Below, piece by piece: positions 10,556 through 40,550 of a stretch of 64,000 nucleotides of DNA. Source of the DNA: Eggerthellaceae bacterium. Lineage in GTDB: Bacteria; Actinomycetota; Coriobacteriia; Coriobacteriales; Eggerthellaceae. A program made the translations under genes and the position numbers. The notes beneath the pieces were generated by a model. The model had not been told where the DNA came from. It was given only the letters and a program-made list of their open reading frames with translations, and did not search any database. The DNA is taken from positions 186,001 through 250,000 of the forward strand of contig JAAVZC010000008.1 of NCBI GenBank assembly GCA_022791455.1, in the 5' to 3' direction. Within the stretch, counting starts at the first letter, position 1. Each line of letters starts with the position of its first letter.

Positions 10556-10726
10556 GTCATCTCGACTGGAGGCCGCAAGGTTCAAGCCCTGTTGTCATCC
10601 TGAGCGGAGGCCTTTAGGCCGGAGTCGAAGGATCTCTGCGGCCGGGGAGATCCTTCGACTACGCGCTTCGCGCTCCGCTCAGGATGACAAAGGGGTGGGC
10701 TGCTTCGCGCTCCGCTCAGGATGACA
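10556..10726. repeat. Cluster of palindromic elements (B fragment, A, inverted A, A fragment)
   Basis: A truncated family B element begins at 10556 (GTCATCTCGACTGG). A full A element spans 10593-10634. An inverted A copy spans 10647-10688, and its 3 prime part is repeated at 10702-10726 (CTTCGCGCTCCGCTCAGGAT). The A and inverted-A copies could pair into a large hairpin. Together they occupy the gap between the patatin and SpoU genes. Confidence 0.85.
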
Positions 10727-14652: not shown

Positions 14653-14728
14653 TGGTGGAGCATAGGGGGATCGAACCCCTGGCCTCAAGATTGCGAACCT
14701 TGCGCTCTCCCAGCTGAGCTAATGCCCC
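14653..14728 (-). tRNA. tRNA-Ala (anticodon CGC)
   Basis: 76 nt on the minus strand with encoded CCA. Acceptor GGGGCAT pairs with ATGCTCC, including the G3:U70 pair that alanyl-tRNA synthetase recognises. The D-arm is GCTC...GAGC. The anticodon stem is CAAGG/TCTTG with loop TTCGCAA, so anticodon CGC reads GCG. The T-arm is AGGGG-TTCGATC-CCCCT. It lies downstream of the Veg-like gene on the same strand and has its own terminator. Confidence 0.97.
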
Positions 14729-37966: not shown

Positions 37967-39190
37967 ATGACTGAAAACGTTTCGACGGCAGGCGCCGTCA
38001 AGGCTCCTGCGGCCAAGAAGGGCGGCGCGGGGCTCAACATCGCCATCGGCGTGTCCGCCGTTCTGGTGGTGCTCGGCATCGTCCTGTGGGCGATGCAGCT
38101 CTCGGGCGGCATGATTCAAACCGCCATGAGGAACCTGGATTCCTGGGGCCTTTACATTACGAGCTTTATGTTTTTCGTCGGTTTGTCCGCCGGCGGCTTG
38201 ATTATCTCTTCGGTGCCGAAGGCCTTTGGCATCGAGGGCTTCGGCGGCATCGCCAAAGTAGCCGTCATGACCTCCATCGCCTCCACGGTGGCCGCCATCG
38301 GCCTGGTGGTGGTGGACATGGGCCAGCCCTTCCGCGTGTGGGAGCTGTTCGTCTACTCGAACTTGGGGTCGCCCCTCATGTGGGACATCATCGTGCTCGG
38401 CACTTACCTGATCCTCTCCTGCGTGTACCTGTGGGCGCAGGTCCAGTCCGAGAAGGGCAAGGTGTCCCACGTGGCCCTTCGCGTGATCAGCGTGATCGCG
38501 CTGGTGTGCGCTATCCTCGTCCACTCCGTGACCGCCTGGATCTTCGGCCTGCAGCAGTCCCACGAGATGTGGCACACCGCGCTTTTGGCCCCGTGGTTCG
38601 TCTCGTCCGCCCTCGTCTGCGGCACCGGCCTCGTGATGGCCGCTGTCATCGCGCTTCGCGCCGCCGGCTACCTGAAGCTGGGCCAGTCCCACCTGGTGAA
38701 GCTTGCGAAGCTGCTCGCGGTGTTCCTGCTCGTGGACCTGTACTTCTTCGGCTGCGACCTGCTGACCGAGGCGTTCCCGGCGGGCTCCGGCATGGCCGTG
38801 GTGGAGATGCTGGTCTCCGGCCCGCTGGCCCCGTTCTTCTGGATCGAGATCGTCGGGTGCATCGCGGCCGCCGTGATCTGCCTGGTGCCGCAGCTGCGCA
38901 CGAACCCGCTGCTGGTCGTCGCCTCCCTGCTCGCCATCGCCGCCATCTTCTGCAAGCGCGTGCAGCTCTTGGTCGGCGGCTTCCAGATCGCCAACATCGA
39001 CTACGCGGGAGTAATGACCCCGTTCACCGTCACCAACTGGGAGGGCAACATGGCCCAGGCGTACCAGGGAATGGTCTACTGGCCCACCCCGCTCGAGTTC
39101 GGCGTCACGCTGGGCGTCGTGGCCCTCGGCTTCCTGATCTTCTTCTTAGGGCTCAAGTTCCTGCCCCTCAAACCTCAGAATCAGGAGTAG
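37967..39190 (+). CDS. NrfD/PsrC-like membrane anchor subunit
   Basis: 407 residues, about 9-10 membrane helices. NrfD features include WGLYITSFMFFVGLSAGGLIISS near the N-terminus and VVDMGQPFRVWELFVYSNLGSPLMWDI, typical of quinol-interacting polysulfide-reductase-type subunits. It anchors the catalytic and Fe-S subunits and exchanges electrons with menaquinone. The start has TTTAAGGAGAAACTCCT upstream. It lies 196 nt after the Fe-S gene, with palindromic elements between, so subunit stoichiometry could be tuned there. No chaperone (TorD/DmsD) gene is adjacent. Confidence 0.92.
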   Translation: MTENVSTAGAVKAPAAKKGGAGLNIAIGVSAVLVVLGIVLWAMQLSGGMIQTAMRNLDSWGLYITSFMFFVGLSAGGLIISSVPKAFGIEGFGGIAKVAVMTSIASTVAAIGLVVVDMGQPFRVWELFVYSNLGSPLMWDIIVLGTYLILSCVYLWAQVQSEKGKVSHVALRVISVIALVCAILVHSVTAWIFGLQQSHEMWHTALLAPWFVSSALVCGTGLVMAAVIALRAAGYLKLGQSHLVKLAKLLAVFLLVDLYFFGCDLLTEAFPAGSGMAVVEMLVSGPLAPFFWIEIVGCIAAAVICLVPQLRTNPLLVVASLLAIAAIFCKRVQLLVGGFQIANIDYAGVMTPFTVTNWEGNMAQAYQGMVYWPTPLEFGVTLGVVALGFLIFFLGLKFLPLKPQNQE

Positions 39191-39218
39191 TCTCCGACTC
39201 CCGGATCCTCTCCAGCTC

Positions 39219-39351
39219 GTCATCCTGAGCGCAGCGAAGGATCTTCCCAGCTGCGACCGGAAGATCCTCCGCCTGCGGCTCAGGATGACGAGGGGGAGGA
39301 GACCGCGGAGATCCTTCGACTGCGCGCTTCGCGCTTCGCTCAGGATGACAA
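39219..39351. repeat. Three family A elements after the molybdoenzyme operon
   Basis: Forward short copy at 39219-39245. Inverted copy at about 39260-39289 (AAGATCCTCCGCCTGCGGCT). Longer inverted copy at about 39309-39350 (AGATCCTTCGACTGCGCGCT...AGGATGAC). Opposed copies can pair and may act as a 3 prime stabiliser or terminator for the operon. Confidence 0.85.
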
Positions 39352-39396: not shown

Positions 39397-40046
39397 GGAT
39401 CGGAAACCCCGTGTATCCCCACGGACTGCGCCTGCTCAGGACCGAAAACCCCGCCGTCCCCCACGCGGATCGCGTATTTCGTGGGGGACGGTCGCATTTG
39501 CGATCCCCGCGCAGCCCCTCCGTCGGTCCCCGGGATCGTAAACCCCCTCGTCCCCCACGGAGCCGTGGGGGATGGCGGCATTTCGGGTCCTGGGCCACCG
39601 ATTGTGGCCTTTTGGGATCGAGAATCCCCTCGAACCCCGCGGCGTCGTGGGGGACGATGGTGTTTTCGGTCCTGGCAATTGCCGAAGCGACGCCTCGGGA
39701 CCGAAAACGGCGTCTCGTCCACCGCTCGAGGCGCGTCTCCGTGGACGAGGCGGCGATGTTGATCCCGGGACAGCTCACCGGGACCCAGCCAGGACCAAAA
39801 AGGCCGACTCGTCCACAGTTGTCGTCATTTTGCGGTGGACGAGGCGGAGTTTTTGATCCCCGCGGTTGCTCCTCGGGGTTTTGGGGGATCGAGATGTGCG
39901 CCTTATCCACCGTTTTCGCTGCTACTTGGTGGACGAGGCGGAGTTTCTGGTCCGTGGGCCGGCGAGCCGGGTTTCTGCGGATCCGAAATATTCTCTCGTC
40001 CACCCGATTTTGCGGCTCCTCCGTGGACAAGGCGGCCTTTTTGGTC
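39397..40046. repeat. Ordered array of alternating inverted 27-nt arms (half-unit plus seven palindromic units)
   Basis: Units: 39397-39438 (half), 39439-39506, 39533-39590, 39615-39672, 39698-39765, 39792-39859, 39886-39953 and 39979-40046. Each full unit is arm (27), loop (14 nt; 4 nt in the third and fourth), reverse-complement arm (27). Arms begin GGAYC-n-n/AAA and end CGTCCACC (last four units) or GTCCCCCACG (first four, one arm more diverged). Spacers are 24-26 nt. Loops and spacers differ in sequence but not length. No protein is supported: open frames exist on both strands merely because GC content is high. With the family A copies and the rplU promoter it accounts for the 1-kb gap 39191-40229. 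Confidence 0.9.
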
Positions 40047-40161
40047 TTTTGCCGCAGCGGAGCAGCGAGGGGCGGTTGTGCTTTATAATACCGGCCGACA
40101 TATTCTTGCCCGGGCTCTGGGGGCCGCTTATGCCGCTTGCGTGAATCGGGCAAAATTTTTG

Positions 40162-40229: not shown

Positions 40230-40550
40230 ATGTACGCAATCGTAAAGACGGGCGGAAAGCAGTACAAAGTTGCCCCGGGCGACAAGATCAACATCGAGAA
40301 ATTGGACGCTCAGCCGGGCGACAAGGTGGAGCTTCAGGCTATCTGCGTTGTGGACGGCGACAAGGTGGAGGCGGATCCTGCGAAGGCCGCCGGCACCAAG
40401 GTGACCGCCACGGTGCTTGAGCAGTTCCGCGGCAAGAAGCAGCTGGTGTTCAAGTTCAAGAAGCGCAAGAACTATAAGAAGATGCAGGGCCATCGTCAGA
40501 ACCTGACCCGCGTCCAGATCGATTCCGTTGGCGCTGCCACGGCTGAGTAG
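40230..40550 (+). CDS. rplU: 50S ribosomal protein L21
   Basis: 106 residues; MYAIVKTGGKQYKVAPGDKI is the L21 N-terminus and FKFKKRKNYKKMQGHRQNLTRVQI the rRNA-binding C-terminal part. It binds 23S rRNA. The start ATG 40230 follows TAAGGAGATATATACC. rpmA follows after 19 nt, the conserved L21-L27-Obg order. Confidence 0.97.
   Translation: MYAIVKTGGKQYKVAPGDKINIEKLDAQPGDKVELQAICVVDGDKVEADPAKAAGTKVTATVLEQFRGKKQLVFKFKKRKNYKKMQGHRQNLTRVQIDSVGAATAE

Follow-up and report, generated by a model that had tools for sequence, protein, structure and literature searches.

The 64,000-nt stretch of DNA analysed here (the window, from contig JAAVZC010000008.1) carries an array of fifteen 27-nt arms between an NrfD/DsrP-like gene and rplU. 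On balance, we read this array as a member of a species-specific, BIME-like mosaic family in the genome of a gut Parvibacter (Eggerthellaceae), in which phased 27-bp sites form a putative protein-wrapping surface. The family is dispersed, keeps fixed spacer lengths and a 10.4-bp phasing, lies 3' of many genes and is absent from relatives. Its organisation is BIME-like; the novelty lies in modules that are not palindromes and, whichever way they point, share one face of the helix. The purpose of bacterial mosaic repeats (BIMEs) and the reason for their hetero dimers are still unsettled (PMC3733652). With modules that do not fold, no cognate transposase, a strict register and free spacer sequence, the family described here isolates a DNA-level, face-of-helix constraint from RNA- and transposition-based explanations.

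A position-weight matrix scan placed the fifteen arms at 39397-40047 of the window, with scores of 16-42 bits (Table 1). Reversed stretches of the same genome, used as the null, yielded no arm at 12 bits and one at 9 bits (9.6 bits), so the arms are not chance matches. The original prediction had described fifteen 27-nt arms in this interval, arranged as seven inverted pairs plus one half-unit, and both points hold, the half-unit being arm 1. The between-pair spacers (26, 24, 25, 26, 26 and 25 nt in order) agree with the predicted 24-26 nt. Loops had been given as 14 or 4 nt; the measured series is 14, 4, 4, 14, 14, 14 and 15 nt, so that six loops fit and the last does not. The claim of strict alternation has to be given up: arms 1 and 2, 15 nt apart, are a direct pair, and in other arrays as many as five successive arms run in the same direction. 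Thus, the arms and a geometry close to that described were recovered, whereas strict alternation and the exact loop set were not. At the Rfam gathering score, the sole match in the window was a tRNA (14656-14728), far from the array. A second intergenic repeat family, TCATCCTGAGCGnAGCGAAGGATC, directly adjoins the array and occurs at eight further sites; its exact core has 11 matches in the window, with 0.07 expected, and more at other loci of this genome.

Table 1. Coordinates of the arms and of other features discussed in the text. Positions without a prefix refer to the window.
Feature	Location	Strand	Score (bits)	Remarks
Arm 1	39397-39423	+	26.6	GGATC; half-unit without a partner, oriented like arm 2
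Arm 2	39439-39465	+	42.1	GGACC; consensus arm
Arm 3	39480-39506	-	28.9	GGATC; loop to arm 2, 14 nt
Arm 4	39533-39559	+	37.6	GGATC; spacer from arm 3, 26 nt
Arm 5	39564-39590	-	33.0	GGACC; loop to arm 4, 4 nt
Arm 6	39615-39641	+	25.3	GGATC; spacer from arm 5, 24 nt
Arm 7	39646-39672	-	36.6	GGACC; loop to arm 6, 4 nt; last CCCCAC-subtype arm
Arm 8	39698-39724	+	36.8	GGACC; spacer 25 nt; first CGTCCAC-subtype arm
Arm 9	39739-39765	-	34.6	GGATC; loop to arm 8, 14 nt
Arm 10	39792-39818	+	34.9	GGACC; spacer 26 nt
Arm 11	39833-39859	-	42.2	GGATC; loop to arm 10, 14 nt
Arm 12	39886-39912	+	28.3	GGATC; spacer 26 nt
Arm 13	39927-39953	-	36.1	GGACC; loop to arm 12, 14 nt
Arm 14	39979-40005	+	16.3	GGATC; degenerate; spacer 25 nt
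Arm 15	40021-40047	-	36.1	AGACC; loop to arm 14, 15 nt
NrfD/DsrP-like gene	37967-39190
rplU	40230-40550
TCATCCTGAGCGnAGCGAAGGATC family, adjoining the array	39210-39350
TCATCCTGAGCGnAGCGAAGGATC family, examples of further sites	5768; 10595-10724; 37864
Inverted array copies	L022:3663-3980; L022:9688-9964			about 5.7 kb apart
Inverted segment	L022:3663-9964			compared with G001:C1:298446-305754
54-nt gaps	L016:8024-8078; L025:3836-3889; L049:3799-3852; L050:3876-3929
Palindrome of the 54-nt gaps, further copy	G000:C11:79750
Y1 transposase gene	C7:231405-231734
RAYT-like Y1 locus	L056:4921-5868 (G000:C7:230921-231868)			flanked by AATGAGACATTAGGAGTGTCCCTTTGTCTCAT copies
Repeat related to AATGAGACATTAGGAGTGTCCCTTTGTCTCAT	L047:8347			P. 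caecicola
RelA/SpoT-domain gene flanks	L015:3697-4937			27-nt arms
RelA/SpoT-domain gene flanks	L059:1605-2720			GTGTCAGGGGGGCGTTCACTTTTGACAC units, P. caecicola

The window array is one of many in the genome. Together with the matrix scan, searches by BLAST and by pattern recovered 172 arms, which fall into 27 groups; 24 of these groups contain at least two arms. The counts come from the searched stretches of the genome and are lower bounds. This genome-wide dispersal, like the helical phasing described below, had been missed in the original prediction. The arm consensus is GGAYCnAAAACCCCGYCnnnCCCCACR, and a second subtype ends in CGTCCAC. The two 3'-end subtypes, ..CCCCAC and ..CGTCCAC, are never mixed inside an inverted pair, and 4-nt loops are confined to the former. 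At the 5' end, two classes can be distinguished, AGGACC and GGGATC (GGACC and GGATC in Table 1), in which positions -1 and 4 are linked. Inward pairs usually join different 5' classes, with a C/T difference at column 4 in 49 of 59 pairs, and in 23 of the 24 pairs with a 4-nt loop. The arrays are almost all intergenic and often start 9-60 nt past a stop codon. According to ORF calls and Pfam matches, their flanking genes are mostly convergent or codirectional, and a few arrays have divergent neighbours (L019, L015:16154). These genes (NrfD, MFS, RelA/SpoT, uvrB, coaE, atpC, McrBC, HerA and others) have no common function.

Gap lengths between neighbouring arms are held to 4, 14-15, 24-26 or 35-36 nt, depending on pair orientation. 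Inward gaps measure 4 nt (26 pairs) or 14 nt (36 pairs), outward gaps 15 nt (14 pairs), 24-26 nt (28 pairs) or, once, 36 nt, and direct gaps 14-15 nt (28 pairs) or, once, 35 nt. When the centre of the conserved AAAA (arm columns 7-10) is taken as phase reference, the 139 distances between neighbouring A-tracts are 31 bp (15), 40-42 bp (83), 52-53 bp (38), 62-63 bp (2) and 29 bp (1), corresponding in every orientation to three, four, five or six 10.4-bp turns (R = 0.96). A scan that assumed neither period nor reference column returned the same best period of 10.4 bp (R 0.965); the A-tract centre (column 8.5) was among several equivalent phase optima, the others (13.75, 19 and 24.25) being spaced half a turn apart. 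The register persisted when one random pair per array was drawn (mean in-phase R 0.965, minimum 0.908) and when each orientation and length class was counted once (R 0.88, a value that none of 20,000 random draws attained; p < 1e-4), and phase coherence within arrays extends to 300-450 bp (R 0.77). We propose that the module is a non-palindromic 27-bp DNA site that can be laid in either orientation, with neighbours almost always whole helical turns apart, so that all sites would lie on one DNA face and their A-tracts would bend alike. The helical phase is interrupted by four outward gaps, all of them 54 nt long, and each carries another conserved palindrome, close to TGACCTGGG-14 nt-CCCAGGTCA, which also occurs elsewhere in the genome (Table 1) and in one copy in Parvibacter caecicola.

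The family has a narrow taxonomic distribution. The arm pattern has 83 matches in its own genome, and the search across Eggerthellaceae that had been proposed along with the original prediction found none in 59 other genomes of the family, even with two mismatches allowed. Likewise, the exact pattern is absent from 84,980 species genomes and from viral contigs, and a representative array had no match in plasmid and phage sets; the absence of matches in the viral, phage and plasmid sets argues against a phage or plasmid origin. The same-locus comparison, also proposed, was made with relatives, including the sister genomes of P. caecicola DSM 22242 (G001) and an uncultured Parvibacter MAG (G002), and no orthologous array was found beside rplU, coaE or the RelA gene. 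The sister has a peptide deformylase gene upstream of rplU instead, and at coaE an inverted dimer of a GTAG-tagged REP (CGTAGGGCAGAGATTCTATCTCTGCC) where the own genome has an array. This REP is present in 160 copies in P. caecicola and 111 in the uncultured Parvibacter, but in none here. It resembles our family in belonging to the same genus, occupying the analogous site 3' of coaE and often forming inverted heterodimers, but its unit is self-palindromic, whereas the array module is not. Moreover, the REP dimers listed are mostly 59 bp start-to-start, or 5.6 turns, and hence are not in phase. The sister species thus swap one repeat family for another, which suggests that the intergenic niche rather than the sequence is conserved between them.

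The original prediction stated that no known class fits the array. The analysis does not support this, since REP/BIME mosaics share its copy number, gene 3'-end position, inverted dimers and heterodimer preference. Like the BIMEs and REPs of E. coli (BIME-2), Pseudomonas and Stenotrophomonas, the arrays consist of high-copy extragenic modules near gene 3' ends, which form inverted dimers and larger clusters, prefer heterodimers and have spacers of similar length but differing sequence (PMC3733652, PMC2817692). REP/BIME families have more than 100 extragenic copies in regular clusters of opposite orientation, and the 172 arms in 24 multi-arm arrays fall within this description. These shared features are what a classical REP/BIME family would show, that is, non-autonomous elements moved by a RAYT, with the regular spacing as a by-product (PMC3733652, PMC2817692), and the genome indeed contains one Y1 transposase related to NCBIfam REP_Tyr_transpos, which has no match in either sister genome. 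We nevertheless consider this explanation unlikely. The Y1 transposase scores 60, under the NCBIfam cut-off of 80; its gene, the only one found in a genome that is 93% complete, has a copy of another 32-nt repeat, AATGAGACATTAGGAGTGTCCCTTTGTCTCAT, on either side and no arm nearby, and the sisters have a true GTAG REP family yet lack a Y1 match. The REP unit is an imperfect palindrome of 20-40 nt, whereas the module here is no palindrome, and single arms fold no better than shuffles (-2.98 vs -2.92 kcal/mol). There is also no terminal GTAG or CGTC tag: arms start with (A/G)GGAYC, and CGTC, if present, is internal. Unlike in BIMEs and REPs, direct runs occur, and the spacing in every orientation keeps to whole helical turns; the E. 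coli GTAG-end distances (13, 16, 36 and 75-77 bp) follow no single 10.5-bp register, although nine distances are too few for a firm statement. Because a palindromic unit, a terminal tag and a cognate RAYT flanked by arms were each sought and not found, we file the family as BIME-like rather than as REP. New copies seem to come from duplication of whole or partial arrays and of single modules of ~42 bp, without a cognate REP transposase. The arrays also share regular repeats and unrelated spacers with CRISPR arrays, in which direct repeats alternate with uniform spacers of roughly repeat length, but differ from them in the changes of orientation at most junctions, the gaps of 4, 14-15 and 24-26 nt and the degenerate repeats.

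Two separate observations concern the repeats of this section. The two AATGAGACATTAGGAGTGTCCCTTTGTCTCAT copies at the RAYT-like locus are identical direct copies of a stem-loop repeat, and a related repeat is found in P. caecicola, where no Y1 gene was found. A self-stem GGAC/GTCC inside the arm was considered and rejected, as it fails for the GAG, CAT and CGTCCAC variants.

Could the arrays act as RNA? As long 3' UTR hairpins, they might make mRNA more stable or terminate transcription bidirectionally. Their placement past stop codons is consistent with such a role, an inward pair resembles a bidirectional terminator (A-tract, GC-rich stem, T-tract), and RNA of the window array folds far better than shuffles on both strands (z -11.5 and -9.1). 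However, strong folding arises because inverted copies unavoidably fold, and inverted partners resemble each other less than permuted partners do, chiefly at column 4 (p about 0.006; 0.002 for 4-nt loops), which disfavours structured RNA, one of the options raised in the original prediction, as the selected trait. Direct arm runs make no hairpin, terminator-like sites with a GC hairpin and a T-run are not enriched over shuffles (2 vs 1.3 +/- 1.4 expected), and an RNA role leaves the 10.4-bp-turn spacing across outward and direct pairs unexplained. We therefore regard an RNA element as improbable. Selection on RNA hairpins through strand-specific wobble was likewise rejected: G.T/A.C signs agree within pairs, mainly owing to the linked columns -1 and 4, and show no clear strand preference.

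Spacer sequence is near random between arrays (identity 0.30-0.42, against about 0.26 expected from composition) while spacer lengths stay fixed. Within this one genome, common descent is a possible but less likely source of these lengths. The arrays could also be the decaying remnant of an old amplification, with inherited spacer lengths and no present function. The family is indeed species-specific, arms are degenerate in places (arm 14 of the window array, 16 bits), and some have been lost, leaving larger gaps of 54, 87 and 175 nt. Simple decay is nonetheless quite unlikely, given that spacers with almost no resemblance between arrays keep their length within 1 nt and that all retained lengths fall at integral turns. 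Two inverted copies of one array, at L022, bear directly on this point: the two diverge at 10 of 189 arm sites (5.3%) and at 14 of 88 spacer sites (15.9%), a threefold faster divergence of the spacers without any indel (p 0.005). Random drift alone, which the original prediction had named as the sign of a remnant, is thus not what is seen within this genome. The arms and spacer lengths are kept and the spacer sequences are not, in line with the predicted gene-independent system of defined unit and fixed geometry; the part of that interpretation that stands is a defined, non-decaying system, while the novelty of the class is not supported and structured RNA is disfavoured.

The two L022 copies are homologous from one arm through to another, and one of them is longer by a single module. 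Between them lies a segment of ~5.7 kb with uvrB and a gene for a polysaccharide deacetylase; its orientation is opposite to that in P. caecicola, so the two arrays mark the breakpoints of an inversion specific to this lineage. Arms that serve as transposase- or integrase-binding ends and insert at a fixed distance from existing copies would account for unrelated spacers of fixed length (as fragments of original intergenic DNA), for homology that stops at an arm and for the inverted arrays around the inverted segment, but this is highly improbable, as no autonomous copy, with arms enclosing a gene, was seen, no target duplications were obvious by eye in the array flanks, and the inversion may be plain homologous recombination.

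We return to the phased-site reading and its possible physical basis. The AT spectrum of the arrays peaks at 10.5 bp (5.9, compared with 1.3 in random control stretches). Spacers alone show no such peak, and the signal stems from the arms, which counts against claiming a continuous gyrase-like wrap. Of the spacer types, only the 14-nt loops keep step with the A-tracts (z 8.3), whereas direct spacers and the outward ones of 15 nt lean slightly towards the opposite phase. In a wedge model with nominal parameters, the predicted bend per 105 bp is 58.5 degrees for arrays, 39 with jittered spacers and 26 for flanks, and it exceeds that of jittered spacers in 18 of 19 arrays; under one wedge model, the window array gains little from phasing (37 vs 33 degrees). 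The arrays are thus predicted to be intrinsically curved through in-phase A-tract bends. As in phased A-tract DNA, A-tract centres lie at integral turns and the predicted bend is about twice that of the flanks, but each tract is no longer than A4, neighbouring tracts are separated by three to five turns, and conservation is just as strong in other columns of the arm. Conservation of GGAYC and CCCCAC beyond the needs of curvature implies a sequence-specific reader. A literature search on phased A-tract repeats and on Parvibacter repeats returned nothing relevant.

E. coli gyrase binds 130-bp motifs with a GC periodicity of 10.75 bp, binding well-phased sequences better than a scrambled one, and BIME-2 elements are transcription-independent strong gyrase sites (PMC6379681). 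A periodic GC preference was also described for the gyrases of B. anthracis and M. tuberculosis (PMC12324340). Given the periodicity of the arrays and the preference of gyrase for phased sites, gyrase or another wrapping protein is a natural candidate binder. The arrays may share with strong gyrase sites (Mu SGS, BIME-2) a ~10.5-bp AT/GC periodicity over at least 100 bp of intergenic DNA (PMC6379681), but here the periodicity resides in discrete conserved 27-bp modules, and gyrase binding is inferred. The array would then offer a docking or wrapping surface for an architectural DNA protein, with DNA gyrase or a nucleoid protein as likeliest candidates. Acting at the DNA level, it might retain or relax supercoils between adjacent transcription units, many of them convergent, as E. 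coli BIME-2 does. That nearly all modules lie on one side of the helix, despite changes of orientation and unrelated spacers, suggests a species-specific DNA scaffold at gene ends rather than debris. More tentatively, a sequence-specific candidate protein could read the 27-bp modules on one face irrespective of their orientation, making the arrays dozens of in-register nucleoprotein or curved platforms. In the sister species, the comparable sites between genes are instead occupied by a REP family that is not related to the arms.

Finally, a RelA/SpoT-domain gene is flanked by repeats on both sides in two Parvibacter species, by unrelated families in each. Other Eggerthellaceae also have palindromes close to the RelA gene, but these are unrelated to the arrays. 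The gene has 27-nt arms at its flanks in the genome studied here, and both sides in the sister carry a third, unrelated palindromic element (Table 1).
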